A stretch of DNA of 64,000 nucleotides from Chthonomonas sp. (GTDB taxonomy: Bacteria > Armatimonadota > Fimbriimonadia > Fimbriimonadales > Fimbriimonadaceae), in NCBI GenBank assembly GCA_016788115.1, contig JAEURR010000006.1:1-64000 (forward strand). The letters are read 5' to 3'. The notes below the pieces were generated by a model, which worked only from the letters and a program-made list of their open reading frames with translations, did not search any database and was not told the origin of the DNA. Position numbers and translations under genes: made by a program. This document shows, in pieces, positions 24,929 to 47,889 of this stretch (position 1 is the first letter of the stretch; each line of letters begins with the position of its first letter).

Positions 24929-26274
24929 TGGTCGTTCGACAGTCAAAACCCGAACCTTTCTGGATCGGCGCACGGAAAGACTGGAAGGTTCGCCAGAGCC
25001 TGAAGGTTAGTGCACTCGTCGCAGTCACCGCAAGAGAGATGGCGACCCACATGATCTTGCTGGGAAGTACAGGATCTGGAAAGAGCACGGCCATGGTCCA
25101 CTTCATCGCCCAGGCCATAGGGCAGGAAATCTCCTTCATCATCATTGACCTTCGCGGAGACCTGGCCAGCGCAGCATTCCAACTGGTCTGCCTAAGAATC
25201 CCGGCATCGAAGATTGCTCTCCTTGACCTGAGGGAAAAGGTGCCACTCACTGGCTTCAATCCACTTGCCGGATCGGGCGAGATTTACTTCCGCGTACTGA
25301 ACCTTCTAGACGCCATCGCGGAAGAGCATGATCTTGGAGTTCAGACCGTTGAATACATGCGGTTTGCGTTCCTGCTCCTAGCGGAGACAAAGCAACCGAT
25401 CACCAAACTCGAACACATCTTCTTCGATTCCAGCTACCGATCAGACTTGCTCGCTCGATCAACGGATGAACCGATGCGAGAGTTCTGGTCACGGTATGAC
25501 CAGCTCACGAAGGAGAAGCAACAGGCCATTGCCAGCCCGGTTCTGAACAAGGTGAGCCTGCTGTTCGCCACTGATGGGCTCCGCAAGCTATTCTCCCATC
25601 CTCAACCCCTTGATCTCGGAGAGCACCTCAACACGCCTGGAACTGCACTGATCGTGTCGTTGGCCGCTGATGAACTGAGTGGAGCGGGAAGGATGGTCGG
25701 AAACATTGTGCTCAACGCAATCCGACGCGAAATCTTTGCGCGAGTCACGATCCCCGAGAATCAGCGAGTTCCCGTTCAACTGTTCGTCGATGAGTTTGAA
25801 CACTTTGATTCAAGGGTTTTTGAGGAGTTTCTTGCCGAAGCAAGGAAATATCGTCTTTCGCTCATCCTCGCCCACCAAACACTGGCACAAGTTTCTCCAA
25901 GGTTCCGCTCGCTCGTGCTCAATGGCGTCGGCGTGAAGATGTTCTTCCGCACGGGTCGTGAGGATGGTGCCCTTCTCAGCAAGGATTTGACGGGCGATTC
26001 CAAAGCGATTGACTTCAACAATGTGCCGGTCGGCGAGGCTTACCTCTGGAAGGTCGAGAAGGGATATGAGCACATCCTGGTCAACGCGCCCCTTCTCAAG
26101 CCCTCACTAGTTCGAACGCTCGCTTCGTTTCTCGTGAAAGATCGGATGCGGCGTGAAGCTCGCGTGGTCTTCGATGCTGGCCCCGGAGGAGATGGGCCAA
26201 GAGCGACTCCATCTCCTCACAGTCCGAAGGATCCGAGGCCATCTGCACCAACGAGTTTGGAGGAGTGGCTATGA
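24928..26274 (+). CDS. TraG/VirD4/HerA-like DNA-translocase ATPase
   Basis: A 448-residue P-loop ATPase: Walker A G-S-T-G-S-G-K-S-T at 46-54, Walker B F-V-D-E-F at 286-290, then E-A-R-K-Y-R-L-S-L-I-L-A-H-Q-T-L-A-Q, the typical sensor region with Gln of coupling proteins and HerA/FtsK. The C-terminus is Pro/Ser-rich and disordered. No N-terminal membrane helices are visible, unlike classical VirD4. It may pump or couple element DNA for transfer. ATG at 24928 overlaps the previous stop; ATGA overlap links it to the Replic_Relax gene after it. No relaxase or secretion channel genes are in the window. Confidence 0.85.
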   Translation: MVVRQSKPEPFWIGARKDWKVRQSLKVSALVAVTAREMATHMILLGSTGSGKSTAMVHFIAQAIGQEISFIIIDLRGDLASAAFQLVCLRIPASKIALLDLREKVPLTGFNPLAGSGEIYFRVLNLLDAIAEEHDLGVQTVEYMRFAFLLLAETKQPITKLEHIFFDSSYRSDLLARSTDEPMREFWSRYDQLTKEKQQAIASPVLNKVSLLFATDGLRKLFSHPQPLDLGEHLNTPGTALIVSLAADELSGAGRMVGNIVLNAIRREIFARVTIPENQRVPVQLFVDEFEHFDSRVFEEFLAEARKYRLSLILAHQTLAQVSPRFRSLVLNGVGVKMFFRTGREDGALLSKDLTGDSKAIDFNNVPVGEAYLWKVEKGYEHILVNAPLLKPSLVRTLASFLVKDRMRREARVVFDAGPGGDGPRATPSPHSPKDPRPSAPTSLEEWL

Positions 26275-26942
26275 GGTTCACCGAGCGAGACGTTAGGTTG
26301 ATCCGTGATATCGCCCTCAGCCACGTTGTTAGTCGAGACCAAGTGATTCGACTGGGATACTTCGATTCAGTCACTCGATGCAATACGCGTCTGCGTGAGC
26401 TTACTGCGGTGAGCGCGGTGCGTCAGATCAGTACTCCGTTCAATGCTCAGTCCCTGTACATTGCTGGCTCCCTAGCTGGAGAGCTCTGTGGGGAGCGCAT
26501 CGAACGGTTATTGGCAGACCGGATCGGGTCGCCCAGATTCGTGCGCCACGCCCTCTCTTCCACTAACGTTCGGATCGCTCTCCAGAAGCGCGGCGGGACC
26601 GGATGGCGATTCGAACAGCAGCTATGGCGAACCGTTAGCAAGCACGAGGTTCGACCAGATGGCCTGATCGTCCTCAAGGGTAACCCAACGTTCATCGAGG
26701 TTGATCTCGGCCACGTTTCCGGCCCCAAGTTCACAGAAAAGCTGAAGGGCTACTCGCTCCTAGCTAGCGGCACTACCTGCGCTGACCTCTACGGCTTTGC
26801 CACCGGTCGGCTTCTCATTGTCACGACTTCTCCCCGAAGAGTCCGTCACCTGCGGGCTCTCACTTCAGACCACACGCGGCTGGAATGCCTCGTCACGACC
26901 TTTGACGAGCTCGGAGCCCCACCTGTTGGGTGCTGGAGCTAA
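26271..26942 (+). CDS. Replication-relaxation (Replic_Relax) family protein
   Basis: A 223-residue protein beginning M-R-F-T-E-R-D-V-R-L-I-R-D-I-A with a winged-helix N-terminus (R-D-Q-V-I-R-L-G-Y-F, C-N-T-R-L-R-E-L). A nuclease-like second half (R-P-D-G-L-I-V...F-I-E-V-D-L-G) has D..E-x-D residues reminiscent of PD-(D/E)XK folds. Members occur in plasmids and integrative elements next to TraG/FtsK-like ATPases and are thought to act in DNA processing for replication or transfer. GGAGGAG directly before the ATG at 26271 and the 4-base overlap with the ATPase support the start and the pairing. Confidence 0.75.
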   Translation: MRFTERDVRLIRDIALSHVVSRDQVIRLGYFDSVTRCNTRLRELTAVSAVRQISTPFNAQSLYIAGSLAGELCGERIERLLADRIGSPRFVRHALSSTNVRIALQKRGGTGWRFEQQLWRTVSKHEVRPDGLIVLKGNPTFIEVDLGHVSGPKFTEKLKGYSLLASGTTCADLYGFATGRLLIVTTSPRRVRHLRALTSDHTRLECLVTTFDELGAPPVGCWS

Positions 26943-26954
26943 AGGAGACAAACC

Positions 26955-27320
26955 ATGAACAATGAACTCAAATCATTACCTGATGGCCTTTTAGACGAGA
27001 TTAGGCAGATCACGGACCAACTGGTCCCGACCGAGCTTGCTGGGAAGCAGGAGCTTTCCCGGAAGTTACCCGTCAAGGGAGTTTCAGGAGCGATGGCAGA
27101 CATCGCTCAAACTTCGCCAGAGCTCTTTGCCGCAATCCTACTTGCCTCCCTAGGGATTGAAGGCGTCACAGTCGTTGAAACTCACACAACGACCGAACAT
27201 CGAGTCGTTGAACTCAGGAACATACATGGAAAGCGCACGGAAGTGCAACCGATGAAGTCGATCAGGGAGACGAGCCGGGAGGTCCGTTTGAACCGACCTG
27301 GAAGGGAGCGCCAAACATGA
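26955..27320 (+). CDS. Small hypothetical protein in transfer/excision operon
   Basis: A 121-residue soluble, charged protein. The second half (V-E-T-H-T-T-T-E-H-R-V-V-E-L) is beta-like, the end is very basic. It sits 12 bases after the Replic_Relax gene and overlaps the next HTH gene by 4 bases, so it belongs to the same transcript. No family recognised. Confidence 0.6.
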   Translation: MNNELKSLPDGLLDEIRQITDQLVPTELAGKQELSRKLPVKGVSGAMADIAQTSPELFAAILLASLGIEGVTVVETHTTTEHRVVELRNIHGKRTEVQPMKSIRETSREVRLNRPGRERQT

Positions 27321-27532
27321 GTAACCCATCCAGCCGGCCACCAGTACAAAGGCTCGCTTACACCGTTCAGGAAGCGGCAGCCCTTCTCTCGCTCTCTCGA
27401 TCCCTCGTCTACGAGCTCATCAATGCTGGAAAGATCGATACAATCAAGATTGGTCGCGCCCGTAGGATCACTAGCAATCAGTTGGAGAAGTATCTCCAAG
27501 AATGCGAGCACCTAGCTCCTGGTCACCACTAG
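27317..27532 (+). CDS. Excisionase-like HTH_17 (MerR-type) protein of element A
   Basis: A 71-residue DNA-binding protein with the helix-turn-helix Y-T-V-Q-E-A-A-A-L-L-S-L-S-R-S-L-V-Y followed by the wing K-I-G-R-A-R-R-I. Small proteins of this type act as recombination directionality factors for tyrosine integrases, bending the arm region to favour excision. It is at the opposite end of element A from the integrase, which is unusual but possible because attL and attR are joined on excision. ATGA overlap with the preceding gene. Confidence 0.75.
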   Translation: MSNPSSRPPVQRLAYTVQEAAALLSLSRSLVYELINAGKIDTIKIGRARRITSNQLEKYLQECEHLAPGHH

Positions 27533-27549
27533 ATGAGGCCGAGAAAAAT

Positions 27550-27575
27550 GGGCATGGAGGCAATGCTCCATGCCC
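27550..27575. terminator. Bidirectional hairpin terminator
   Basis: GGGCATGGAG-GCAATG-CTCCATGCCC is a 10-bp perfect stem with A-rich sequence on the left and TTAAAAT on the right. It separates the rightward excisionase gene from the leftward deaminase cassette. Confidence 0.75.
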
Positions 27576-27593
27576 TTAAAATATGTGAGGAAC

Positions 27594-27782
27594 CTAGCAG
27601 CTTTGTTTAGGCTCCTCAGATGGCGTTCGTCGAGTGTCCTGATTCTGCTCAACGACATTTTGTGGACTCGTTGACGCAAGCACTGCCTGCTCCCGCCTCT
27701 CTCTGATTTCATCGACAGCTCTATCAAGTCTGTCCCAGTAGCTCTTGCTTTCCGCTGTTCCGTAGTTTCTCTCGAATCTCAT
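27594..27782 (-). CDS. Small protein coupled to AvcD-like deaminase
   Basis: A 62-residue charged protein (M-R-F-E-R-N-Y-G-T-A-E-S-K-S-Y-W-D-R-L...). The ATG overlaps the deaminase stop by 4 bases (ATGA), which is good evidence for a genuine, co-translated gene. The C-terminus is Gln/Thr/Pro-rich and likely disordered. No family is recognised. It might be an accessory or regulatory partner of the deaminase. Confidence 0.6.
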   Translation of the reverse strand: MRFERNYGTAESKSYWDRLDRAVDEIRERREQAVLASTSPQNVVEQNQDTRRTPSEEPKQSC

Positions 27783-29407
27783 GGTCTGTTCCCTGTGTTG
27801 CCCTTTGGAAACACCTCACTGTACTTTTCTAGCACAGGTGCTTCCAGTTGTAAAACTGCTTTTGTGTCAAATGGAAATCTAAACTGGTGTGGAGTAGATG
27901 AGTCTTTCGTTAATGCTCGCTCACCATCTTTCCGCTCATGCCTTATACCTGTCTGGGTCCACATTGCAAATAGAGAATCATATCTCCTTGGTGCAATTCC
28001 TATTAATGGAACAATGTCAACCTTATTCTCCAGTCCACGAAGGATGTTATCGTCGATGTCCTTCTGGGGAGGAATGTCCAAGTACTCACTTTTCAGTGCG
28101 TCTCCATGAAGTTTCAACGCATGGCTCTTTGGATAAGGCTGGACGTATACAACCCGATCAATACCTGCTGCAATAATGTGCCTCGCACACGTGTGGCAAG
28201 GAAACGTAGTTGTGTATAAAGTCGATTCAGCAACCGAAAACCCTTTTGAGGCAGCGGAAATGATTGCATCCATCTCAGCATGAACTGATCTGCCAAACTC
28301 AATAATATCCTTCACTGGTGAAGCGGCAAGTGCAGATTGTATTTGAGCGGAACACACCACTTCAACGTCGATTTTAGCCTCGATTATTTCGTGAATGCCC
28401 TTAAGTGTTTCTACCACTCGCTTTGCAGCCTCATCAACCAATCCTTGTCGAAACCTTTGGCCAGGATCGTACTTCAACGCATAGTCAGAAACATCGTGAG
28501 ATTGACCAACCTGGTACAGTCCACCTCCCGGCATGGGAGCATCATTTCTACCAACAGCAATCATCCGACCTTTTTTATCGAACAACGCTGCACCAACCTG
28601 ACGAGATAAATCTCCCGATCGGAATGAAGCATTGTAGGCTACCTGCATACCGAATTCATCGTGTCGCGGAACCTCATTGAAGTGAGAGGTGCATAGCCTC
28701 AAAATTCTCTCAAGGTCATTCTTCCAAGTTAGGCTGCCATTTTCTTGTTGGGTCTTCGAAATAAAGGCATCACAAAGCTCAAAAAGGTCTCTGGTGTTCT
28801 GGCCTGAGTCGTCACTTTCAAATGCATCATGAGTGATCAAATCTTGAGCGTTATCTTCACTCTTACACTTCGCTTTCAGACGCTCTTTACGATCCTGAAA
28901 AGACTCATGAACACCAATCAGAAAAAAGGAGTCGCCGTAAACCTCTCTGAGTAAGCGAGCTTCATCAGGGTGTTTTAAAGATCGAATTTGCGTCACTCGG
29001 AGTTTATCTGCGTTTGCTTTCCTGTTTTCAGATATTTCAAAAACGCAGTGATGTGAGAGTACGGAATCCAGTTCCGTGCTCGACCTTAACAAGTTACCGG
29101 CTTGTTGGCGTGCTCTTGTCTTTGCGTGATAATCTATGGAATCAAAGTCCCGGAGAACGTCTTCAGACGGGGTTAGATTCTTGATCGCTTCGACAACTTT
29201 GATAGTGTGGTGGAAGGCATCTCCGCCAAAAAAGGACCTAACACGCTTCATTGGAGAATCCGCTTCTCCCTCACAATCCAACTCCACGCCAATCGGAGCG
29301 ACCCACCCAATAATGAAGTCCCTTCCTTGCTCACCTGAAGATTTTGACGCGGAAGCCATACTTAGTAGACAGACGTCTGCTTCGCCTGAAAAGTTTCGGT
29401 TTTCCAT
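27779..29407 (-). CDS. AvcD-like antiphage dCTP/dCMP deaminase
   Basis: A 542-residue two-domain protein. The N-terminal P-loop-like region starts I-I-G-W-V-A-P-I-G-V-E-L-D (residues ~32-44). The C-terminal zinc deaminase domain has H-A-E at 376-378 and P-C-H-T-C at 403-407 in the order expected for CDA-fold dCMP deaminases. This arrangement is that of AvcD antiphage deaminases, which deplete dCTP/dCMP during infection and are held inactive by a small RNA (AvcI) in Vibrio. I saw no clear AvcI-like RNA, but only ~70 bases separate the start from the element end. The region is noticeably AT-richer than its neighbours, suggesting a separate origin. Start at 29407 is uncertain; 29467 or 29359 are alternatives. 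Confidence 0.82.
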   Translation of the reverse strand: MENRNFSGEADVCLLSMASASKSSGEQGRDFIIGWVAPIGVELDCEGEADSPMKRVRSFFGGDAFHHTIKVVEAIKNLTPSEDVLRDFDSIDYHAKTRARQQAGNLLRSSTELDSVLSHHCVFEISENRKANADKLRVTQIRSLKHPDEARLLREVYGDSFFLIGVHESFQDRKERLKAKCKSEDNAQDLITHDAFESDDSGQNTRDLFELCDAFISKTQQENGSLTWKNDLERILRLCTSHFNEVPRHDEFGMQVAYNASFRSGDLSRQVGAALFDKKGRMIAVGRNDAPMPGGGLYQVGQSHDVSDYALKYDPGQRFRQGLVDEAAKRVVETLKGIHEIIEAKIDVEVVCSAQIQSALAASPVKDIIEFGRSVHAEMDAIISAASKGFSVAESTLYTTTFPCHTCARHIIAAGIDRVVYVQPYPKSHALKLHGDALKSEYLDIPPQKDIDDNILRGLENKVDIVPLIGIAPRRYDSLFAMWTQTGIRHERKDGERALTKDSSTPHQFRFPFDTKAVLQLEAPVLEKYSEVFPKGNTGNRP

Positions 29408-29479
29408 GCTACCGCAAAAGAATCCTTTACCGCATGAGACGGAGGAGGGCAATAACTTGACGCGCATCTTCGAGGAAAA

Positions 29480-29500
29480 TAAACTGCGGATAAACTGCAG
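29480..29500 (+). repeat. Candidate integrase arm-type sites, right end of element A
   Basis: TAAACTGCGG (29480-29489) and TAAACTGCAG (29491-29500) repeat the first two units at 4258-4278 exactly, same orientation and spacing. The match at the opposite boundary of the element is what makes both sets convincing arm sites. Confidence 0.7.
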
Positions 29501-29506
29501 AAACGA

Positions 29507-29535
29507 AAAACGCCCTCCGATCTGGAGGGCGTTTT
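29507..29535. terminator. Hairpin terminator beside tRNA-Lys fragment 2
   Basis: AAAACGCCCTCC-GATCT-GGAGGGCGTTTT, a 12-bp perfect stem with T-runs on both strands, 22 bases from the CCA end of the tRNA fragment. Its sequence differs from the terminators beside the other two copies, so it arrived with an element rather than by duplication of the host terminator. Confidence 0.8.
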
Positions 29536-29556
29536 CTTCATTCTTGAACCCAAATC

Positions 29557-29603
<47 letters not shown>

Positions 29604-29691
29604 TCTCTGGAACGGTGTCCGCGCTCCTCCGTATTTGTGTGTTTGGAACCTGAATATCAATGTATAATGTTCGTGAGGGTTCGTCAATGTG

Positions 29692-29730
29692 TGGTGTCAA
29701 ACGCCCTCTCTGGTGTCAAAAGTGGTGTCA
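29692..29730 (+). repeat. Candidate integrase arm-type sites, left end of element B
   Basis: Three direct copies of TGGTGTCA start at 29692, 29711 and 29723. The last two form TGGTGTCAAAAGTGGTGTCA, which recurs exactly at 47814-47833. The set is 33 bases upstream of the integrase ATG. Confidence 0.7.
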
Positions 29731-29762
29731 ACTTTTGAAGCCGACGACGGACAAGCAGAAGC

Positions 29763-30893
29763 ATGGCAAGACAGCGCAGAAACGCCGGTTACACCGTCTC
29801 AAAGCGGTCCGATGGACGATGGATGGCCAGGGTGTTCCTGGGCTACGAGAACGGCAAGCAGAAGCGACACACGATCTATGGCAAGACCGAGATTGAGGTG
29901 AATCGTGCCGCTCAAGACTTCCGCGTCAAGAACGAAGAAGGCGCGTTCGCGCCAACTTCGAAAGACTGCAAGGTAAGCGAGTACCTCGACAAGTGGCTCG
30001 AAGTCTACGTCACTTGCCCACCGCTTGCGCCCAAGACGGTGAAGTCGTACAAGGAGCAAACCAAGAATCACCTGATCCCATCCTTAGGGGCGATCCCGCT
30101 GAGGAAGCTCGCGCCCCAACAGGTTCAGAACATGATGAAGGAGAAGATCGCGTCCGGGCTCTCACCTACATCCGTCAACGGCCTGCATCGTGTCCTTCGA
30201 GCGGCCCTTTCGCAAGCGGTCAAGGATCGAATGATCGCCGAGAATGTGGCAAAGCTGGTGAAACCGCCTAAGGTCGCGAGTCGAGCGGAGAAGCACTTTA
30301 CTCAACCCGACTTACAAAAGCTCTTCGCCGCATGCCGTGGCCATCATCTCGAATACCTGTTCCGCTTGGCACCATATGTCGGCCTTCGCTTAGGTGAGAT
30401 CACAGGTTTACGGTGGGTTGATGTGGACTTCGAAGATCAGACCATCCGCGTGAGGAATCAACTCCAATGGGTTGATGGCAAGCCAACTCTCCGCGAACCC
30501 AAGAGCGCAAACAGCAAGCGCATTCTGCCCATCGGAGATTTGGTGGACATGCTCCAACTCCAAAAGTCGATGATTCTCGTGAACGGTTGGGAGAACAAAA
30601 TGAATCTTGTCTTCGTCAGCTCGACGGGTAATCCGCTTGATCCGAAGCTCGTGAACAAGTACCTCAAGATTCTCTGCGGGCAAGCCAAGATCAGCGAACT
30701 CAGCTTCCACAGCTTCCGACACACGGCGGCCACTTTGCTTCTTGCCGCTGGAGAAGAAGCCACCGAAGTAATGAATATGCTCGGGCACAGCCAGATTTCG
30801 CTCACTGTCAATACCTACGGAGGGGTAACGAGGGAGGCTCAAAGGCGAGCGGCACAGAAGTTGAGGAAGGCCATTGACGAAGGCATTAAGTGA
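29763..30893 (+). CDS. int: Tyrosine recombinase/integrase of element B
   Basis: A 376-residue integrase with N-terminal arm-binding-like beta domain (~8-60), core-binding domain (~68-165) and catalytic domain. Visible catalytic residues are R209 (V-G-L-R-L-G-E), H316-x-x-R319 (H-S-F-R-H), H342 (L-G-H-S) and the nucleophile Y352 (V-N-T-Y-G-G). It shares fold and target with the element A integrase but differs in sequence throughout. It lies 160 bases inside attachment copy 2. Confidence 0.95.
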   Translation: MARQRRNAGYTVSKRSDGRWMARVFLGYENGKQKRHTIYGKTEIEVNRAAQDFRVKNEEGAFAPTSKDCKVSEYLDKWLEVYVTCPPLAPKTVKSYKEQTKNHLIPSLGAIPLRKLAPQQVQNMMKEKIASGLSPTSVNGLHRVLRAALSQAVKDRMIAENVAKLVKPPKVASRAEKHFTQPDLQKLFAACRGHHLEYLFRLAPYVGLRLGEITGLRWVDVDFEDQTIRVRNQLQWVDGKPTLREPKSANSKRILPIGDLVDMLQLQKSMILVNGWENKMNLVFVSSTGNPLDPKLVNKYLKILCGQAKISELSFHSFRHTAATLLLAAGEEATEVMNMLGHSQISLTVNTYGGVTREAQRRAAQKLRKAIDEGIK

Positions 30894-31291
30894 TTCGAAG
30901 CGAATCCGCCAGACCGCCTGAAAAAATTGCAAAAATTGGCCCATTCGAACCTACGGGCAATTGCTTGAGCGTCCGGAATGCGACCAATTTTCAACCGATT
31001 GAGATCGATTTCAACGCTAACATTAGTGCATTGGCACCGATCTAAACAAAACGCCCGGTGCCTACAATTCCCTAACCGGACGCCCAACCACTTCCCGATC
31101 CACTTGCCACCTGATCGCCGAAGCTAATTCGGAACCTCCAGACCGCCTGAAAAAATGCGAAAAGTCCCTCCCTTGACACCGAAACCGGCTCCTATAGATG
31201 AGCAAATCTGTATCCAAGAGAGTGCGAAAGTAGCAAATCCGGTCCCACGCGCTAAGTAACACTTCATTTCTCGTGCGATCAAAGGCTCAGT
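30894..31291. other. Intergenic region with 19-bp direct repeats
   Basis: About 400 bases without a convincing gene. CCAGACCGCCTGAAAAAAT occurs at 30909-30927 and again at 31138-31156. Between them lies an inverted repeat GGCACCG (31033-31039)/CGGTGCC (31056-31062). The repeats could be regulatory, replication-related or a deletion/insertion scar. Confidence 0.5.
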
Positions 31292-32365
31292 TCACCTCAG
31301 CCCAGTCTCTAGTGCTTGGACAGCTCGACTCAGTCCGTCTCTGCCGTAGCGATCCTCATATTGCCTGAGAAGGCTATGCACGCCAGAGTTCTTTATTCTG
31401 TCCGCAGATCGCTGCAATTTTTCCATAGCTCGGCGAAACGCCTCATCTTCGGGATAGTTGCCCCGTAACGTTAAGCAGCTCTTGCAGAAGATCGGATTTG
31501 GGCCTCTCGCCCCAACTTGGACGTCGGCATTGCACCATCGGCAAAGAGCGATCCCTCGAACAAGACTTCTCGCAAGAAGTTCGTGCCGCTCGCCCAGGAG
31601 TAAGTAAAGGAAGCCGAGCAGGCAGTTTGCCGAGAGTCTTGCCGTACCATTTTCAAATTCGTAAAGGACAGTCGTCTCTTGCGCCATCCTTAAAATTAGA
31701 GAGCGGCAAAACTTTATGCAGCCCGGTGCCCCCGAATCAATCAAGTCTCGGACGGACGGATCGTCTGTGCCGAGGTCGTTGGCTTCGTGAGTGAGCCTAT
31801 AGACCTTGTGCCTTTTATGTCCTTGCAAGATAGTTTCTATGCGGGTTCGGATAGATTTCGCAGATCGGCTGGAATTGGCAAGACTCATCAAGATCGAGAC
31901 CGCATCCATTCGTTCACGGTGCCAAAGCCAACTACTATATGGCTCCCCAACCAACCGAAGCACTCTAGCCGAATCCATCCAGAACTGTGCTTCAGGGTAC
32001 AGGCCGAGTAAGCCGAACCGTTGAGCGAATGACTCAGCAACCTCCGTGGAATCGATTTTGAGAAACTCGTCCAAAGCCTCATGTCCCACCTGGGCGGCAT
32101 TCGTGTTGATCGCCGAAAACCTGGAACGCAAGAGTCCGGGGCTGGAATCCCTCATATCCTTGCTCTCAAATCCAATCAGCTCGACTACCGGAGCATTCAG
32201 CGGTGGATCACCTCCCCTATGAATCGAAGCGAAGCCATCGAACTCCCGCATCTGAATCGGCCCTCCCGCTACCCGAGAGAAACGCCCCGACCAGATTTTG
32301 AACAACGGCCCTGTCACAGCCGGATATGTCGTCAAATACCATGAGTTTACGGAGGGTTTCTGCAT
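31292..32365 (-). CDS. Hypothetical zinc-finger protein (element B)
   Basis: A 357-residue protein with a C-terminal zinc site C-R-W-C ... C-K-S-C (about residues 280-300), the only clear motif. The arrangement, a long helical body then a CxxC-x(n)-CxxC finger, resembles CGNR/ABATE-type regulators only vaguely. The ATG at 32365 was preferred; a GTG at 32380 is also possible. It is divergent from the excisionase-like gene with a ~70-base shared promoter gap. Function unknown. Confidence 0.6.
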   Translation of the reverse strand: MQKPSVNSWYLTTYPAVTGPLFKIWSGRFSRVAGGPIQMREFDGFASIHRGGDPPLNAPVVELIGFESKDMRDSSPGLLRSRFSAINTNAAQVGHEALDEFLKIDSTEVAESFAQRFGLLGLYPEAQFWMDSARVLRLVGEPYSSWLWHRERMDAVSILMSLANSSRSAKSIRTRIETILQGHKRHKVYRLTHEANDLGTDDPSVRDLIDSGAPGCIKFCRSLILRMAQETTVLYEFENGTARLSANCLLGFLYLLLGERHELLARSLVRGIALCRWCNADVQVGARGPNPIFCKSCLTLRGNYPEDEAFRRAMEKLQRSADRIKNSGVHSLLRQYEDRYGRDGLSRAVQALETGLR

Positions 32366-32435
32366 GATTTGAGCATACACTCCCCGCCATCATTCTCGAA
32401 CGACCTCGATTCAATGCGAGGCGAGGAGAATATCT

Positions 32436-32627
32436 ATGGAATCAACCAAAGGCAAATACCTCTACACCATCAGCGAGGCAGCCGAGCTCCTGGGAGTCGG
32501 ACGCACAACCATGTACGAGCTACTCAATTCGGGCAAGCTCAAGATCACGAGAATCGGTACGCGAGGCATCCGAATTTCGGATGATGAGCTCAAGCGATTC
32601 ATCGCCGAAAACTCCGAAGCTCGGTAG
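32436..32627 (+). CDS. Excisionase-like HTH_17 protein of element B
   Basis: A 63-residue protein: Y-T-I-S-E-A-A-E-L-L-G-V-G-R-T-T-M-Y-E-L, L-N-S-G-K-L, then the wing I-G-T-R-G-I-R-I and a last helix. It is the counterpart of the element A protein at 27317 and a likely recombination directionality factor. Here it lies on the integrase side and overlaps the start region of the next gene. Confidence 0.75.
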   Translation: MESTKGKYLYTISEAAELLGVGRTTMYELLNSGKLKITRIGTRGIRISDDELKRFIAENSEAR

Positions 32628-32656
32628 TGGACGTAGGAAGGGGCCACTATGTCCTG

Positions 32657-33823
32657 ATGGGTTTTGACACGGTCGCGATTGGCGGCGTTACCGCTGCTCC
32701 AATTCTGTTGCTCAAGTCCGAAGGGTGGGGTAAGCGAACCAGGCAGTACCAGACAGCAGAGCGAGGCGGAATATCGCTGTTTGTCTCCCAATTCTGGGGA
32801 TTTCACTACGTGAGGCTGCAAACTTCATTACCGCACCTCGTCTATGGGCATAACTTTGAGCCCGTCCCCGTGCGCAATCTACAGCGGGCACTAGAATTGT
32901 TCCTGGCTGAAGCTCGTCACTGGTTCCCCGAGCTAAGCGACGTCCCGCTAGAGATGTTTGCAGTACGACGAACCGACATAGCTTTTGATCTGCCCGTTGA
33001 CGCTTCGCCATCGATGGAGAGGGCACTTAATGACTGCCATCTTAGTAACCGCCTCCCAGGATTTACTTTTGAAGGACCGGCTTCTAATTCGCGTTACTCG
33101 AAGGATTGGAGAGGAAAACGGGCGAATACGTACCGTTCCATGATTGCCTACGCAAAGCGGCACCTTCCCACCGGAGGCAAAGGTCTTCGTTTCGAATCTC
33201 GCTTCGGATCGGCATATCTGCGTAGAAAATTCAAGGGGAGGATGACCCTCGAAAGCCTCGTCACCCATGGTCAAGAGATTCTTCTCTGTGCCTGGGAATA
33301 CATTGATAACGAGTTTAGCCTACTAAGACCTCACAACGAACGCTCCTTACGTCTAGCTATCCAAAACGCACCAACGGCTCAACGCGAATTCCTCTCCGAC
33401 TTCGGCTACTTGGCTCGTGAAGTGCCGCTCAAGCAAGTGTGGCGGCTGCTTTGCGGAACCAAGAAAATCGACACTCGAATCTTGAAACAATATGGAGTCG
33501 GTTTCGGTGACGCGGAGATTCCGGAGCTAAAGTTGTTCGCCGAAATCCGTGAAGCAATAACTTCGTGGCTATCGTGCCCTTATAAGAAAGAGGTCGAGAG
33601 GCGCGACACAGATATAAACGAATCCCTACTCCAAAGCACTCAGCAAGAGATCGACCGGGCTGACTCCGAGCGCACCTGCAATTGCAATCAGCTCAATGAC
33701 CGCCACGCCTCGCTCACCGCGCTCAATTTTCCCCACCGTCATCGGGTGCCAACCCAACCTGGTCGAAAGTTGCCGTTGCGAAAGTCCCTGCTCGCCCCGC
33801 AACCGAGAAATCGCTCCCCGTAG
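32657..33823 (+). CDS. Replication-initiator-like protein (phage gene II/X-like)
   Basis: Up to 388 residues. The region F-A-V-R-R-T-D-I-A-F-D-L-P-V-D (~residues 98-112) resembles the V-x-R-x-D-x-x-x-D motif of filamentous-phage gpII/X and related replication initiators, and the downstream domain is of similar size. A rolling-circle Tyr could not be assigned with confidence. AGGAAGGGG precedes the ATG at 32657; a GTG at 32627 that overlaps the previous stop is an alternative. The last ~65 codons are Pro/Arg/His-rich, run antisense to the Xre gene and may not matter for function. Confidence 0.5.
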   Translation: MGFDTVAIGGVTAAPILLLKSEGWGKRTRQYQTAERGGISLFVSQFWGFHYVRLQTSLPHLVYGHNFEPVPVRNLQRALELFLAEARHWFPELSDVPLEMFAVRRTDIAFDLPVDASPSMERALNDCHLSNRLPGFTFEGPASNSRYSKDWRGKRANTYRSMIAYAKRHLPTGGKGLRFESRFGSAYLRRKFKGRMTLESLVTHGQEILLCAWEYIDNEFSLLRPHNERSLRLAIQNAPTAQREFLSDFGYLAREVPLKQVWRLLCGTKKIDTRILKQYGVGFGDAEIPELKLFAEIREAITSWLSCPYKKEVERRDTDINESLLQSTQQEIDRADSERTCNCNQLNDRHASLTALNFPHRHRVPTQPGRKLPLRKSLLAPQPRNRSP

Positions 33824-33871
33824 GCGATGCTCCTCCTCATGTAGCGGCTGACGACGATGTTGACCCGGCAC
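33626..33871 (-). CDS. Xre-family HTH regulator of element B
   Basis: An 81-residue protein with a clear Cro/CI helix-turn-helix (G-L-S-Q-R-Q-L-S-T-R-L-G-W-H-P-M-T-V then I-E-R-G-E-R-G, and A-L-G-V-S-P-V-D-L-L). It overlaps about 200 bases of the 3' end of the rep-like gene on the opposite strand, so each transcript is antisense to the other there. Likely regulator of element maintenance genes. Confidence 0.75.
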   Translation of the reverse strand: MPGQHRRQPLHEEEHRLRGAISRLRGEQGLSQRQLSTRLGWHPMTVGKIERGERGVAVIELIAIAGALGVSPVDLLLSALE

Positions 33872-33933
33872 TGTCTACCAGATTGAATCCTCGTATGATC
33901 ATATTTCGTGATCATTTTGGGTAGGCTGAGAAC

Positions 33934-34230
33934 ATGGCACTGGAGACATGCAAGGCATGCGGTCATTTGATCTCGCCTCAAGCTCGCGAATGCCCAAATT
34001 GCGGTCATCCTAATCCGAAAACAAACCCCAATTCACGGGCAAACCAAATGACCAGGGGGACGATTTCTGCCATCGTAGGCTTGATAAGCTTCATATTCGC
34101 ACAAGCAGTGAAGAATGGGCCGGATGCTAGAGAGCAAATCAACACGATCATCTTGTGCACGACCTTCGGCATCCTCGCAGGGATCGGCGGGCTACTGCTC
34201 CTGGTCTGGGGCTTCTTTTCGTTTGACTAA
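33934..34230 (+). CDS. Zinc-ribbon double-TM protein
   Basis: A 98-residue protein: zinc ribbon C-K-A-C-G-H...C-P-N-C-G-H at residues 6-24, a polar linker, then two hydrophobic segments (~43-60 and ~70-95). Common small membrane protein of unknown role, possibly a sensor or regulator. It precedes the HD-domain gene by 20 bases and may be cotranscribed with it. Confidence 0.7.
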   Translation: MALETCKACGHLISPQARECPNCGHPNPKTNPNSRANQMTRGTISAIVGLISFIFAQAVKNGPDAREQINTIILCTTFGILAGIGGLLLLVWGFFSFD

Positions 34231-34250
34231 GTGCGGTGGATATCTTGCAC

Positions 34251-34838
34251 ATGAACATAGAACAGGCACGATTTTGCTCGGCTCTACATTTCGCGATGGC
34301 CGCTCATGGGGATCAGGTACGGAAAGGTACGACGATCCCTTATATTTCACACTTGCTTCAAGTAGCCGGTCTGGTTTTAGAGCTCGGAGGCGATGAGGAC
34401 GAAGCTATCGGAGGCTTGCTTCACGACTCCGCCGAAGACGGCGGTGGTGAATCCGTGCTGACGGCAATTCGAGATCAGTTCGGCGAAAAGGTCGAACAAA
34501 TCGTCCGTGAGAATTCGGACTCGATCACCGAGTCAAAGGACGTCAAAGCTCCGTGGCGAGAACGTAAGGAGAAATACATCGCCGGAATCGCGACGAAGTC
34601 TGCATCAGCGCTTCTGGTTTCGATCTGCGACAAAATCCACAACGCGCGGTCACTCAATGCAGATTCATGGTTCTTGGGGGAAGCCCACTGGGATCGCTTC
34701 AATGCCTCGAAGGAAGACTCGATTTGGTATTACCAATCGTTGATAAAAGCCTTTCAACTCCGAGAGTCCGATGATTCAAGACTTACGTCCGCGCTAGCCT
34801 CGCTGAAGCTCGAAGTTGAATCCTTTACGTCTAAGTGA
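34251..34838 (+). CDS. HD-domain phosphohydrolase (small RelA/SpoT-hydrolase-like)
   Basis: A 195-residue protein with the order H-x-x-x-x-x-G (A-M-A-A-H-G-D-Q-V-R-K-G-T), Y-I-S-H-L-L-Q-V, and L-L-H-D-S-A-E-D. These are the metal and catalytic motifs of the (p)ppGpp hydrolase domain of SpoT/MESH1-like enzymes, with C-D-K-I-H-N-A-R later in the chain. No synthetase domain is present. It might hydrolyse alarmones or related nucleotides, and small alarmone enzymes are known in phage defence, but substrate is unproven. Start at 34251 (ATG) was preferred over GTG at 34236. It converges on the HEPN gene. Confidence 0.75.
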   Translation: MNIEQARFCSALHFAMAAHGDQVRKGTTIPYISHLLQVAGLVLELGGDEDEAIGGLLHDSAEDGGGESVLTAIRDQFGEKVEQIVRENSDSITESKDVKAPWRERKEKYIAGIATKSASALLVSICDKIHNARSLNADSWFLGEAHWDRFNASKEDSIWYYQSLIKAFQLRESDDSRLTSALASLKLEVESFTSK

Positions 34839-34868
34839 TGAGAGAATGACAAGAGTAGAACAGTCGGA

Positions 34869-36215
34869 TTATGAAAACTTCAGCTTCTCAATGGTATCAA
34901 AGAAATCTTTTCTAGTCTTGTACTTTCCGCGAGTTCCGATCAATAATACGAAGAAACGCCAAGCAACCTGAAGAAACTCGACTAAGAGTTCCAATTCCTC
35001 AATTTTCTGGTCATGGTGGACGACGTCTGAGCGCAGGCCGTAAGCTTTGACAATCGTTTTTGAGATTGCCCTTCTATCTTCTCCGTTGTCGCTGATCGTG
35101 AACGCAATTCGCTCCGCGATACTTTGCTGAATAGACTCCGTTTTGTTTTGTAGCAAAAATGAATCTAGCGACCGAAAGACGTACAACAGTCGGTCTTCTG
35201 GTGATTTTTGAAGCGAACTTTTAGAAAAGGTCCAAATACTCCTCCAGAGGTCTTTCTCGAACTCAGTTTGATTCAGACAAATGAACATGTGATGCAATCC
35301 GCCCATTCCGGCCTGCTGAAGCATGTCCATTGTTTCGTCGTTTAGCGAGAAGTATTCAAACGGTTCGTCATCTCCAGTTGCGAAACCGACAACAGCATCA
35401 TCCAGTATTGTGAGAACCTCGCTCCCGTCCACATGGGCTCGACCAAGTGGTCGTATATGAGATGGAATCAACGGGTGGAGAATGCACGGTTGAAATGTCC
35501 GCAGAATTGCCAACGCATTTTCTGTTTCCGCAAGTGCGATCTCCTTTGCACGCATCGGCTCAGCAAGCAACTTAATCGTGCAACTCGCATGCCCTTGGAG
35601 CCGCGTTCTGTAATGCGCGACAAGGGCTTGTGATTGCTCATCCCACACTCCCTTCAACTTCAGTTGCCCCTCCCAAGTCTCAAAAAACTGGGGTCTGAAA
35701 GGATGAACTTCTACTCGACCGAGCTCGAAGTCAAAATCAGTTGTCAATCCATGAACAGGAACCCAGACCCATATGGACCTGACTCGCTCTTCGAATTCGG
35801 CAAGCAGGTACTCACAAAGTGGTGCAGTAATCGTTTGCTGGTGGGAACCGACTGCCCAATCAAAAACAGTATCCTCCACCGCCTTCTGGCTAACACGTTC
35901 CCGAAATCCTTCTGTTCTTTGAATATTCTCCGATAGAATTCGGACGGTGCGGTAGGCGTCTTCTCCAACTCCTATGCGACCTTCGCCAATCTGACGATGC
36001 TTCGTGAGGATCGTACCGACGACATCAACCTTCATCTCCGTGAAGTTTTTGATCTCCTCTAAGCTGAGGGAAGCGACAGGAATAAATCCTCCTTCTGCCT
36101 TCGTAGATGCCTGTTTGATAATCGGAGCGACTTCGATTAAGGCAAGCAGTGCTTGTCCCTCGGCATTAAATCCCTGAACTGCATTTGGGTGCAGGTAAAC
36201 CTTTGGACCGCTCAA
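34869..36215 (-). CDS. Large protein with C-terminal ApeA-like HEPN domain
   Basis: A 448-residue protein. The C-terminal ~140 residues are helical and contain R395-S-D-V-V-H400, an R-x4-H motif typical of HEPN RNases, in the context A-Y-G-L-R-S-D-V-V-H-H seen in ApeA-like HEPN domains. The N-terminal ~300 residues are mixed alpha/beta, could be the sensor part, and are unrecognised. HEPN proteins often act as toxic RNases or scaffold effectors in abortive infection. It is the last gene of the leftward operon, 46 bases after the TIR gene. Confidence 0.7.
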   Translation of the reverse strand: MSGPKVYLHPNAVQGFNAEGQALLALIEVAPIIKQASTKAEGGFIPVASLSLEEIKNFTEMKVDVVGTILTKHRQIGEGRIGVGEDAYRTVRILSENIQRTEGFRERVSQKAVEDTVFDWAVGSHQQTITAPLCEYLLAEFEERVRSIWVWVPVHGLTTDFDFELGRVEVHPFRPQFFETWEGQLKLKGVWDEQSQALVAHYRTRLQGHASCTIKLLAEPMRAKEIALAETENALAILRTFQPCILHPLIPSHIRPLGRAHVDGSEVLTILDDAVVGFATGDDEPFEYFSLNDETMDMLQQAGMGGLHHMFICLNQTEFEKDLWRSIWTFSKSSLQKSPEDRLLYVFRSLDSFLLQNKTESIQQSIAERIAFTISDNGEDRRAISKTIVKAYGLRSDVVHHDQKIEELELLVEFLQVAWRFFVLLIGTRGKYKTRKDFFDTIEKLKFS

Positions 36216-36261
36216 GCGATTGCTTCACCTCGTATACGTCTCGTTCGCTGGGATAAATTGC

Positions 36262-36888
36262 TTACCAAGGTACTTCACCGCCATCGGACCATCTGCACTC
36301 CGGGCATTCGACCCCGGCATACATGTCGTCTCGCTTCGGGTCTGGCGCAGACCATTGCTTGAGCTGGTCCGCTGGTAAACCACACTTCGGGCAACAGACA
36401 TAGACCCCTGCCCCGTGAAACTCACGAAACGGAAGTAGAGTGCTCTCAATGACTTCCTGAATTGCTTTCCTAAATTCAGCGTCGGTCTCGACTCCAAGCA
36501 GTACTCGCGCCACTCTAAAGTGATCCTCGTCCTTTGCATCAATGTAATGGATCGGCGCAAGTATTGTTGGAACGGGCGTATCGTCGAGAAGCACGGGCAC
36601 AAACCGGTAATGTTGTTCCTTAGTCCACCGAGTAATGGCCGCGTTCATCTCGTTCCTGACCCAGTTTGATCCTTCGGCCCCCTTCGACCAAACGAGAACG
36701 AAAGTGTCGAAACCGGATAGCCCGGCGTCAATGGCTGACGGGATTGAGTCGCCAGGACGAATCCGCCATTTATCCAACCAGACCTGAGCGCCGGTCAAGG
36801 TCAGGGCTGCCGCCAAACTCCGGACGAACTCTGAGCTTTCAGAGTTGTAAGAGATGAAAAGTCGCGAATCCTGGTCAACCTGTCTCAC
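36262..36888 (-). CDS. TIR-domain protein with C-terminal zinc ribbon
   Basis: A 208-residue protein. The N-terminal TIR domain (1-135) has R-L-F-I-S-Y-N-S at 9-16, V-W-L-D-K-W at 36-41, and S-N-W-V-R-N-E at 74-80 with E80 at the catalytic position of NAD-hydrolysing TIRs. The last ~45 residues hold C-C-P-K-C ... C-P-E-C, a zinc ribbon that could bind nucleic acid or a partner. TIR effectors deplete NAD or make signalling nucleotides. The start lies 3 bases after the Mod stop, so it is co-translated with Mod. Confidence 0.9.
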   Translation of the reverse strand: MRQVDQDSRLFISYNSESSEFVRSLAAALTLTGAQVWLDKWRIRPGDSIPSAIDAGLSGFDTFVLVWSKGAEGSNWVRNEMNAAITRWTKEQHYRFVPVLLDDTPVPTILAPIHYIDAKDEDHFRVARVLLGVETDAEFRKAIQEVIESTLLPFREFHGAGVYVCCPKCGLPADQLKQWSAPDPKRDDMYAGVECPECRWSDGGEVPW

Positions 36889-36891
36889 GGA

Positions 36892-39756
36892 TTAAGTCAC
36901 CTCGTAGACCTTCAGCACTTCGTCGCCGTAGTGGTTGATCACTTTGACTGCGATCTTGCCCGTCGATGGCTTGGCAAACGGCTGACTCTTCGTCGAATAG
37001 AGCGCCGACCAAGCCGCCTCGTTGATTTCGGCCCGCAGCGCTCGTTTCAGCTTGTCGTACGGTTCGTCGCCGCCCAGGAAGTAGGCGTGCCGCACGAAGA
37101 AGCTTTCGCCGTTATAGTTTGTGTCAATGAACCAGACGGCAAGGTCGTCGGTCGATCCGCTCCGAATCTGGCCCGTGGTCGGGTCGTAGACGTCCAAACC
37201 ACGAACCTCGACCGTGACCTTTCCTTCTTCTTGGGCAAGCACCACGTCAGGTTCTCCAAAGACCATGAAGAGATTGCCCGCGCCGGTCTTCTTCAGCAGT
37301 TCGTCGCCCATGCTCAGGTCATTGTTCATGCGAACCGGAAGCACGGTCAGCGATCCAAACTGTTTTGCCTCTTCGCTGGCGTAACCGTCGAAGCTGAATC
37401 CGCATACGATCAGCAGATCGAACCCGACGCCCTTCACCGCTTCTTTGGCGGCTTCCTTGATCCAATCTGGGCCAACCGTGCCGAACTCGGGTCCGATACT
37501 GACCGCGACGGTCTTCGATCCTCCGTCGGCGTCGGTGTAGCTCCCCCTGGCGTGAACCCACGCCCCGGCGAACGGTTCGAGCGCATCGAACTTCAGCCGC
37601 TCGCCCTTGCGAGTGTTCTGAACGCCCGCCTTTCGTAGGTTGTCGAGGATCATGCTTTCAAACCGCTTGCCGCCGGTCTCGGTGTGGGCCTGCTGTTCGC
37701 TCTGAGGCGCGTCGGGGTTCGTCTCAAGAACGCGGTGAGGGGCAAGGCTTTCGACCGTGAACGGCCCAGTGACGCGCACCCGGCTCTTGTCCTCGTACGG
37801 TTGATCGTAGAGAAGCTCCGTTTCGGCGTGCCTCAGAATCGCTTTGTCAATCTCCTCGCGCCGGGCGTCCATTAGCTTCCAATAGTAAGAGTAGGCTACA
37901 TAGTGGCGATGCTTCTCTTCGCCTTGGTGCAACATGTAGACCAAGTCTTCAAGGGACCGAATATGATCAATATCAGGTTGTCCGGGTGCCCATTCTAGTC
38001 CCCAGTTCAACTCGTCCACTGTTTCCTGAGTCCGGGGAACAGTACCGACGATCCAATCCTTTTCCGAATAGGTCCGAATCGTTTCGACACATCTTTCGAG
38101 CAAAGGGTCATACGTTGCCGCGATGCCGTCGATGGCCGGGTTGTTCGCTATGCTACCAAGGGTCACATGAGGAACCCGCTCGTACACGAAGCCCTTCCGC
38201 ACGTCTTCTTCGGTCGGATAGCTTGGCGGCACTTTGCCCGTGATCTCCCCTTCTTTTTGAACACCCTCGGGCGAATCGGCTAGGAGATAATAAGGGAATC
38301 GTCCCGCGATGATTCGGGTACGCGCGAGGGTCATGGCGACACGACTCGTATCGAGCGTGATCCACCGTCGGCCCCACTGTTCAGCGACGTAAGCGGTCGT
38401 ACCACTTCCACAGGTTGGATCGAGCACAAGGTCACCGGGGTCGGTGGTCATCAACAGGCATCGCTCCACCGTCTTCGTTCCCGTTTGAACGACATAGACC
38501 TTGTCTTCTGTGAAGCTACCGGTAGCAGTGTCAGTCCAGAGCTTCGTGATTGGAATGCATGGGAAGTCGCTTAGATAGCGAACGTATTGAAGACTATTCT
38601 CTGCAACATGAAGCCGCCCAGCGTGTCCGAGCCGACGAAGGCCGTCAACCGTTGTCTTCCAGGTCTGTTTGTAGCACTTACCCTTCCAGCTGAATTCAAC
38701 AAGTGGATTGCCCTGGGACGTGATATTGTCAGGCTTATAGATTCGGACGTCGTTCGGGATCAGGTTCGGATTCTGTCTTTCGTCGGCCTTCATACTCCTG
38801 CGACTTCCATTGGGAAGCTCAACCCAGGAGTAGTTAGACGCGGTTCCTTCGTCAAAGCTCTTTTCAAGATAAATGCTTCGAAACTTGACATGTTCAATGT
38901 CTTTGGCAAACCACAGCAGTTGATCGCATCGGTTTGGAAGAAGCTTGCTCCCGAGGCCCGAAGTCTTGACAAATGTGATTACTCCGCAAAGGTTTTCAGC
39001 CCCAAATACTTCGTCGAGCAAGCATCGTACAACATGCGCGTTTTCCTCGCCGATCTGAACGAACACGCTTCCTGACTCCGTGAGGAGCTCTCGTGCCACG
39101 ACAAGCCGGTCACGGAGATAGCTTAGGTACGAGTGAATGCCAAGCTTCCACGTATCCCGGAACGCACGGACCTGTTCCGGTTGGCGCGTCGCGTCTTCGG
39201 CTTTGTCCCCGACTTGCCGCTTGCGCGTGCTGACCTGCCAGTTCGACCCGAACTTGATTCCGTACGGCGGGTCGAAGTAGATCATCTGAACCTTGCCCTT
39301 CAGCCCTTCCTTCTCGGCCAGTGAGTTCATCACAAGCAGTGAATCACCCAGGATCATCCGGTTCGTCCAATGGCCCTCATGGTGATAGAAGTCCACTTTT
39401 TTGTCGAACTCCTCGATCCCGTTGAAGTCTCCAAAAAGGTCGAGCTGGTCGCTCGCTCCTTCGACCGCCGCGCCCGGATTGGCGCGAATGTTCTCGATGA
39501 TGGCCGAAGGGTGAATCTTTTCCTGAATGTAGATCGGCACGGTCGGAACGGCAAGGTCTTCCTGGTCCTGCTCATCCTTGCCCTTCCAGACAAGCTGAGG
39601 ATCGAGCGAGGGATCACGCGGATACAGCGCCCGCGCCTCGCGCACCTCGTCTTGAGCCACAAAGTCCTTCAGCTCCTGAGTCGGAATATTGACCCGGCTA
39701 TCCTGGTGCTTCGTGTACTCGATCTTCGTGCCGTCGTTCTTAGGTTTCCTTGCCAT
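36892..39756 (-). CDS. Type III-like DNA methyltransferase, Mod (element B)
   Basis: A 954-residue adenine methyltransferase with D-P-P-Y-G-I at ~162-167 and the AdoMet motif V-L-D-P-T-C-G-S-G-T-T downstream (beta-class order). The start A-R-K-P-K-N-D-G-T-K-I-E-Y-T-K-H is typical for the Mod partner of BPTD_3080-family Res enzymes. The extra C-terminal ~350 residues, beyond ordinary Mod, are characteristic of this subtype. The cognate res is five genes upstream at 44567, with DUF262, SIR2 and pAgo inserted between. 12 bases separate it from DUF262. Confidence 0.92.
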   Translation of the reverse strand: MARKPKNDGTKIEYTKHQDSRVNIPTQELKDFVAQDEVREARALYPRDPSLDPQLVWKGKDEQDQEDLAVPTVPIYIQEKIHPSAIIENIRANPGAAVEGASDQLDLFGDFNGIEEFDKKVDFYHHEGHWTNRMILGDSLLVMNSLAEKEGLKGKVQMIYFDPPYGIKFGSNWQVSTRKRQVGDKAEDATRQPEQVRAFRDTWKLGIHSYLSYLRDRLVVARELLTESGSVFVQIGEENAHVVRCLLDEVFGAENLCGVITFVKTSGLGSKLLPNRCDQLLWFAKDIEHVKFRSIYLEKSFDEGTASNYSWVELPNGSRRSMKADERQNPNLIPNDVRIYKPDNITSQGNPLVEFSWKGKCYKQTWKTTVDGLRRLGHAGRLHVAENSLQYVRYLSDFPCIPITKLWTDTATGSFTEDKVYVVQTGTKTVERCLLMTTDPGDLVLDPTCGSGTTAYVAEQWGRRWITLDTSRVAMTLARTRIIAGRFPYYLLADSPEGVQKEGEITGKVPPSYPTEEDVRKGFVYERVPHVTLGSIANNPAIDGIAATYDPLLERCVETIRTYSEKDWIVGTVPRTQETVDELNWGLEWAPGQPDIDHIRSLEDLVYMLHQGEEKHRHYVAYSYYWKLMDARREEIDKAILRHAETELLYDQPYEDKSRVRVTGPFTVESLAPHRVLETNPDAPQSEQQAHTETGGKRFESMILDNLRKAGVQNTRKGERLKFDALEPFAGAWVHARGSYTDADGGSKTVAVSIGPEFGTVGPDWIKEAAKEAVKGVGFDLLIVCGFSFDGYASEEAKQFGSLTVLPVRMNNDLSMGDELLKKTGAGNLFMVFGEPDVVLAQEEGKVTVEVRGLDVYDPTTGQIRSGSTDDLAVWFIDTNYNGESFFVRHAYFLGGDEPYDKLKRALRAEINEAAWSALYSTKSQPFAKPSTGKIAVKVINHYGDEVLKVYEVT

Positions 39757-39768
39757 GATTTTCCCGTT

Positions 39769-42674: not shown

Positions 42675-42680
42675 GGCAAT

Positions 42681-47500: not shown

Positions 47501-47635
47501 GGGGATGAAGTACGAACTCGGTCGTCGAGATTCGAGAACCTCGTTCGTGATCCCATCAGACGCAAACTTGAAGTGGCGCGACGGAGCGACAAACGGCGAA
47601 TTTAGAATTGGATTTTCTATCGTGCTGTCGCTCAT
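44567..47635 (-). CDS. Type III-like restriction endonuclease Res, BPTD_3080 family
   Basis: A 1022-residue SF2 helicase-nuclease. Start E-N-P-I-L-N-S-P-F and R-R-P-S-S-Y-F-I-P-I are signatures of the BPTD_3080 family. Motif I is A-T-G-T-G-K-T near 170, motif II D-E-A-H-H, motif III S-A-T-P-F-F, and motif VI G-R-G-L-R-R. A PD-(D/E)XK-like C-terminus is marked by Y-I-P-D-F and V-E-V-S. It is the first gene of the operon, so the promoter must be in 47636-47890 next to the right end of element B. The stop overlaps the pAgo start by 4 bases. Confidence 0.92.
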   Translation of the reverse strand: MSDSTIENPILNSPFVAPSRHFKFASDGITNEVLESRRPSSYFIPIAQVKKKGGQLVFETEWTADRIEENTTINRIRERVRIWRDGGYAGVTTTTARLLEHWTNSERTRRLFFCQIEAVETVIYITEAAKKFGDGWIENSVREANDSSNPGLFRIASKLATGTGKTAVMGMLIAWHALNKLANPQDARFSDTFLIITPGITIKDRLRVLLPSDPHTIYRALDLMPSDMMEQLHRAKMIVTNYHAFKLREKIEAPKLTKSVLGNGEAGLFTETPDEMVRRVCREFGNKKNIVVLSDEAHHCYVRKPGEQEEKLSGEDGQEAKKRNELARIWLRGIEAVKNKIGVRAIYDLSATPFFLRGSGWPEGTLFPWVVSDFSLIDAIESGIVKVPRVPVQDNAGIGEQPTYRNLWVSIKDALPKKGRKTDAVSGEPKLPVELEGALRSLYANYETYFKLWESNEEARAKGITPPVFIVVCSNTNVSKLVYDWVSGWEKELSNGDSIVVPGNLPLFSNERDGAWGHRPFSILIDSEQLDSGDAMSADFKKIAHEEIERFKAEYVQRFPGRNPDDITDEDCLREVMNTVGKAGKLGEHIRCVVSVSMLTEGWDANTVTHILGVRAFGTQLLCEQVVGRGLRRMSYAATTRTLERPSGPVEIEAFEPEYAEVYGVPFSFIPCSGSTGGPKPGPIPTRVRALESRMECEITFPRLTGYRFEIRSERLTADFTDSSNLTLSTLDIPTKTENAPIVGESSIHTLDDLRGKRESEVAFLLAKIVLERYFRQEPPEGEDAEPGRVQDVQAWRFPELLSITKQWLARCVTCKDDTFPQLLLLTETAYEAADRIYKAIVRASETKRTLKPILRPYDTCGSTRYVDFDTTKPVMATRTDKCHVSHVVADSNWEFKVEQVLEDMPEVIRYVKNQGLNFLIPYVIQGEQRNYIPDFIAVIDDGVDHGDPLNLIVEVSGAQKRDKESKVTTAETLWVPAVNNHGGLGRWAFIEITDPWDAAGAIRAHLDRVAVTPYFAGGKVP

Positions 47636-47813
47636 GTGTCAATCCCGCCTCTCAAGGCATGGCAGTAATTTTAGCATGATCCGCCAAGATTCGTAGACGC
47701 AGTTCTGGTACCACAATTGCTCGCGGACACTCATGATTTGCGAGAAATCGAGCGCAGATCAATAGCCCGAATTGGATGGGATACTAAGCCGACAGAGCCA
47801 ACACTGCGCCACA

Positions 47814-47833: not shown

Positions 47834-47852
47834 TATCCGACCTCTAGAAACA

Positions 47853-47878: not shown

Positions 47879-47889
47879 GAACCTAAATT

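Follow-up and report, generated by a model that had tools for sequence, protein, structure and literature searches.

A two-gene cargo in a tandem tRNA-Lys element

The stretch of DNA analysed here, referred to as the window, comprises the 64,000 nucleotides at positions 1-64,000 of contig JAEURR010000006.1 from Chthonomonas sp. (GCA_016788115.1). On its minus strand lies a cassette of two overlapping genes. The first (27779-29407) encodes an AvcD-like relative of dCTP deaminases of 542 amino acids, in which an N-terminal kinase-like alpha/beta domain is followed by a C-terminal zinc deaminase; an alternative in-frame ATG at 29467 would give a protein of 562 amino acids. The second (27594-27782) is a gene of 62 codons, the start of which overlaps the deaminase stop in an ATGA at 27779-27782, exactly as the first-pass annotation had described it. 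An intrinsic-terminator-like hairpin (27550-27575, minus strand) is found 3' of the small gene.

The cassette resides in the first of two tandem tRNA-Lys elements, A (4108-29604) and B (29559-47937), each with its own integrase just inside the left att: a putative tyrosine integrase in element A (4303-5436, plus strand), assigned from sequence and position, and an integrase at 29763-30893 in element B. The 3' half of tRNA-Lys(CTT) is present in three copies, at 4108-4153, 29559-29604 and 47892-47937. The second of these (minus strand) is the att at the junction of the two elements and the last lies inside the whole tRNA gene (47891-47966); a hairpin adjoins each copy. Element B contains a TIR/SEFIR-like ORF beside a type III methyltransferase (36262-39756), so that both tandem elements carry defence-type cargo.

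On the left, the cargo slot of element A is limited by an excisionase-like HTH gene (27317-27532, plus strand; TIGR01764, HTH_17). Its outer limit is an arm-type repeat at the right end of the element (29477-29500, no strand assigned), which consists of two ATAAACTGC. This string occurs in the same orientation only at 4268, 4290, 29479 and 29490, i.e. at both ends of element A, and no occurrence was found in the reverse orientation. A terminator hairpin (29507-29535, no strand assigned) separates the arm repeat from att and is conserved in related elements. The cassette adjoins the arm sites and att, and the region is AT-richer than the rest, with a GC content of 46.5% in 27533-29477 versus 54.5% in the remaining element A and 59.7% in the right flank; both properties had been noted in the first-pass annotation. 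A hairpin scan of a 3-kb stretch detected 3 terminator-like hairpins, with 3.1 expected from shuffles, and therefore proves little by itself.

Related elements were traced through the Replic_Relax-type protein adjoining the cassette, homologues of which occur in 40 of the 151 genomes searched (own genome counted). The homologues that were read share 90% and 88% identity in G062, on two contigs, and 60% in G076. The corresponding stretches (L157 and L158 from G062, L160 from G076) have the element end in common, with relaxation protein, excisionase, terminator and att; five other stretches, in which the element end is not shared by blastn, were left out. Excisionase homologues adjoin the slot in all three, and the 24-nt arm string of the window (29477-29500) is identical in L157 and L158. 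Between excisionase and arms none of the three contains a deaminase; the slot holds a 101-aa ORF in L157, a 96-aa ORF in L158 and about 45 bp in L160 instead of the two genes. By eye, the ORFs in L157 (3700-4090) and L158 (203-529) have an N-terminal membrane-like segment. Because three related element copies lack the pair at the same slot, the limits of the cargo can be set at about 27533-29476, a segment with two recognisable genes, one terminator-like hairpin and the 69 nt preceding the deaminase. The pair is a two-gene cargo cassette of a tRNA-Lys integrative element, located in a slot of variable content that is flanked by the excisionase gene and the right arm sites, and the three copies without it support the earlier proposal of late-acquired cargo at the element end.

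The deaminase and the two branches of its family

Residues 31-482 of the deaminase match nearly the full NCBIfam profile NF041025 'anti-phage dCTP deaminase' (362.3 bits, E 3.5e-108), although the score stays below the curated cut-off of 400 bits. The PADLOC dCTPase model matches with 410 bits, and the zinc deaminase family dCMP_cyt_deam_1 of Pfam is matched as well. In an alignment of 21 sequences including that of the window (A3), 21/21 match NF041025 at E<=1e-20. The catalytic residues H376, E378, P403, C404 and C407, which represent the H-A-E and P-C-x-x-C motifs of the C-terminal domain, are intact. The window deaminase retains 69 of the 84 alignment columns that reach at least 85% conservation among 42 further homologues; in the P-loop-like stretch the conserved G37 is replaced by A. 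An AlphaFold model based on the 21 sequences (mean pLDDT 78) displays the AvcD-type two-domain layout that had been claimed, and Foldseek substantiated both domains, matching the N-terminal alpha/beta domain to the adenylate-kinase-related protein 3h0k (TMt 0.72) and the C-terminal domain to dCMP deaminases. With its zinc motifs and N-terminal kinase-like domain, the protein falls within the broad anti-phage dCTP deaminase family. It agrees with NF041025 and PADLOC dCTPase in the extent of the profile match and in the catalytic residues, and it departs from them in its score below the NF041025 cut-off and in the coupled small gene. The cassette is a divergent dCTP-deaminase defence cassette.

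The AvcD proteins of V. parahaemolyticus, ETEC and V. cholerae are reported to form AvcID systems, in which the deaminase is held by the RNA AvcI; the minimum functional length of AvcI is given as about 171 nt and its full transcript as about 280 nt (PMC10511110), and its reported position is upstream of avcD (PMC9455884). The window resembles AvcID in the two-domain dCTP/dCMP deaminase family, in the H-A-E and P-C-x-x-C motifs and in its location on a mobile element. Unlike in AvcID, only 69 nt are available between the deaminase ATG at 29407 and the arm repeat at 29477. Since this is far less than the minimum of about 171 nt, an RNA of the size of AvcI cannot fit upstream of the deaminase, and the antitoxin RNA once suggested at 29408-29480 is unlikely. 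An Rfam scan of positions 26000-31000 gave no match at any family's gathering score. The window further differs from AvcID in that its small gene is located downstream and overlaps the deaminase rather than preceding it, the coupled gene being no part of the AvcI-AvcD pair, as proposed at the outset, and in that its deaminase lacks three cysteines that are invariant in the ETEC-type branch.

These branches emerged from a tree of 44 deaminases, including that of the window, in which the small ORFs on either side of the loci were listed. Near-copies (L107, L111, L136) and short or remote sequences (L073, L080, L082) were left out of the tree, and four remoter relatives from the phylum (G281, G260, G256, G249) were not classed. 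The tree splits with a support of 100/96 into 27 and 17 rows. The larger branch, to which ETEC-type AvcD belongs, is accompanied by family B, by DUF488-like companions or, in one row, by no companion, and the smaller one unites the window with all 10 loci of the companion termed family A and 6 loci without a confident companion. Family A is located directly downstream of the deaminase at 10/16 non-window loci of one branch versus 0/27 of the other (Fisher 4e-6, with related rows that are non-independent). The window deaminase appears to group with the family A branch (support 95/85), on a long end branch, and could also be placed at the stem; moving it to the family B branch costs just 1.56 log units (p-AU 0.20). 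The three cysteines, at positions 266, 308 and 314 in window numbering, are found in 27/27 rows of the family B or ETEC-type branch and in 0/15 of the family A branch, and the window has D, D and a gap at these positions. This marker of the AvcI-associated branch was defined in the present analysis, and the three extra cysteines may form an additional metal or redox site.

On the cysteine branch, a family B ORF is present in the upstream avcI slot of 16 loci, including that of ETEC H10407 p58 (L065). Twelve of these rows trained the HMM, L042 is a near-copy, and the remaining ones have E values of 7e-7 (L112), 0.047 (L032) and only 0.75 (L038). Seven rows bear the label 'B downstream', which was assigned partly by eye. 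Two of them match the HMM of the upstream ORF (L043, E 4.6e-5; L039, 0.0088), L041, L035 and L033 do not match it (E 2-11), and in L048 and L067 the downstream ORF ranked outside the best 34 rows of the search. The avcI-slot ORF, on the plus strand of each locus (L042:3329-3502, L046:3329-3502, L063:2348-2530, L112:705-887, L032:1957-2166, L034:3297-3494, L036:3346-3519, L037:3371-3547), appears to be conserved as a protein with a C-terminal ...A...L.W pattern. Its substitutions fall mainly on codon position 3 (15/19/33 between L063 and L112, 23/17/38 between L032 and L034), and dN/dS amounts to about 0.3-0.45 in diverged pairs. AvcI itself is described as a noncoding RNA.

Three related alphaproteobacterial deaminase loci (L109:4036-4575, L110:4098-4616 and, in L040, after 1245) have yet another, third kind of downstream companion, about 170-180 aa in length, which we take to be DUF488-like. 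Within the family to which the window belongs, the closest homologue is a deaminase relative of G076 that is split across two contigs (L113:3406-5297, L114:315-1484), with a TnpB-like ORF adjoining its C-terminal part. No family A gene was found 3' of this split deaminase, and the locus was not counted as positive.

Family A and the 62-residue protein

Family A, which was defined in the present analysis, has the profile W-L-x-x-Q-L...V-x-x-W-P-x-W. Its members are proteins of about 49-66 aa, encoded at 10 loci on the same strand as the deaminase and starting between -17 and +43 relative to the deaminase stop. The window's phylum contributes the loci of G139, G182, G188 and G240; the others come from G300 and G600, both sampled from the class to which Idiomarina belongs, a Vibrio plasmid, an Azospirillum plasmid and two phage or viral-collection records. 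In a leave-one-out test, members obtained profile scores of 10.4-40.5 bits and the best non-member among 3161 ORFs 9.9 bits; an HMM scan, not inspection by eye, brought up the tenth member (L077/G240). Five of 291 phylum genomes match family A at E<=0.001 (G139, G182, G188, G240 and G184) and four of these matches adjoin a deaminase, the exception being G184, a congener of G182 without a deaminase in the 5.5 kb around its match. Ten further phylum genomes match weakly (E 0.0017-0.05); the weak match in G123, at a contig end, looks genuine. Only G300 matched among 274 gammaproteobacterial genomes, again beside a deaminase (locus L071). This distribution shows family A to be deaminase-linked. 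It evolves as a protein, since dN is 0.19 and dS 1.03 between L116 and L123; the other three pairs are too distant for dS to be computed. Pfam and NCBIfam returned no family of note and PADLOC nothing for family A, and PHROG_38465, of unknown function, matches 6/10 members. A literature search did not find a downstream protein companion of such deaminases, which is no proof of absence.

The 62-residue protein occupies the slot of family A: its 62 codons follow right after the deaminase stop, on the same strand and with the ATGA overlap. It resembles family A also in size and in the combination of helix and polar tail, as its predicted structure consists of one helix (residues 10-36, pLDDT 94-97 in the core) and a low-confidence, disordered polar tail. 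Unlike family A, it has neither the W-P-x-W block nor a significant sequence match, and it is not assignable to the family by sequence. Plain membership, as read from an alignment by eye, did not hold up in profile tests, in which the family A PSSM gave an ungapped score of -7.0 (rank 726/3161) and the family A HMM no score. Gapped alignment to family A members was borderline (z 2.1, p 0.04 from shuffles); this test gave z 3.3 for L106 and 4.1 for L070, the weakest members accepted. In the best alignment, obtained with L076, exactly five residues are skipped, over the W-P-x-W block, a pattern suggestive of a family A member whose signature may have been lost.

Searches with the 62-residue protein gave no significant homologue in viral contigs, plasmids (best E 8), phages (best E 0.9) or 290 other phylum genomes (best E 0.0038). 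Pfam, NCBIfam and PADLOC returned nothing, and PHROGs only phrog_16418 at E 0.1. The expectation that homologues of the small gene would stand beside other deaminases was thus borne out in part: the protein itself has no significant homologue, and a distinct small downstream family recurs on the branch where the window deaminase is placed. Among the six frames of the 62-codon ORF, the forward one has the best codon-usage score. Of 256 genes of at least 250 aa, in a set that is enriched in deaminase loci, 45 precede an ATG ORF of 45-90 codons that begins close to the stop, and in 21 of the 256 the start overlaps; the ORF alone is therefore modest evidence.

Proposed control of the deaminase

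Most likely, the 62-residue protein regulates the deaminase, which it may either inhibit or activate. It would belong to family A and have lost the W-P-x-W block, or be an unrelated protein that has taken over the slot. The reading as a whole, that of a two-gene phage-defence cassette whose deaminase is checked by a small coupled protein, is plausible to a degree just short of probable. Upon infection, by analogy with the AvcD literature, the deaminase would convert dCTP/dCMP to dUTP/dUMP and phage replication would be starved. From the position of the small gene we infer an inhibitory role, as opposed to activation or no effect, in which the helical protein would hold the deaminase in check in uninfected cells and do as a protein what the AvcI RNA does for the other branch. 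Translational coupling would ensure that both products are made in a fixed ratio, and in the simplest form of such regulation the inhibitor would be lost upon infection. Points that weigh against this reading are the lack of a significant family A match of the 62-residue protein, the p-AU of 0.20 for the alternative placement of the deaminase, its long end branch and the 6/16 branch loci without confident family A.

The same architecture could serve activation, with the small protein as a required partner or sensor that aids assembly of the deaminase or switches it on via a phage product. A coupled downstream position and a helix with a tail would suit a subunit no less than an antitoxin, and family A is kept with such enzymes in distant hosts. 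However, the one characterised AvcD partner in the literature found, AvcI, is reported as an inhibitor (PMC10511110), and the partner or sensor role seems unlikely. It is likewise improbable that the 62-codon ORF arose by chance or has decayed and that the deaminase acts alone. This would accommodate the missing homologues in plasmids, phages, viral contigs and 290 other phylum genomes, the similar ORFs after 45/256 genes and the branch loci without a companion, but it is difficult to reconcile with the top codon-usage score, a start that overlaps the stop, a frame that ends just ahead of a terminator-like hairpin and a slot that is recurrent in relatives. A hidden type III system, in which an AvcI-like RNA would be transcribed from the region of the small gene or from the strand opposite the deaminase gene, is quite improbable: the RNA-held AvcD proteins of V. 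parahaemolyticus, ETEC and V. cholerae (PMC10511110) speak for it, but the 69 nt upstream, the Rfam result for 26000-31000 and the missing cysteines, invariant in 27/27 of the other branch, speak against it. The alternative of two functionally unconnected genes, with the small one as cargo in its own right, which unrelated small ORFs in the same slot of related elements might suggest, is very unlikely in view of the ATGA coupling and the recurrent downstream companion of related deaminases.

For the preferred reading of a deaminase under the control of a small protein, a broader version is conceivable, if rather doubtful. Two systems would then exist, the RNA-associated AvcID and a second, undescribed and cysteine-less one that is run by family A, and the window would be an outlying member of the latter with a partner diverged beyond recognition.

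Two deaminase branches with different companions are of wider interest than the window gene alone. In the literature found, the AvcI RNA is the only known means by which dCTP-depleting defence enzymes are silenced in healthy cells. A conserved downstream protein in the second branch, if it holds, would offer a testable alternative control and explain many such genes without avcI, and the cysteines and the companion would provide an annotation marker that separates the two deaminase branches. The small overlapping gene may make the cassette a protein-controlled cousin of an RNA-controlled defence system and would, if this is true, represent a protein-antitoxin version of a system so far known as type III.
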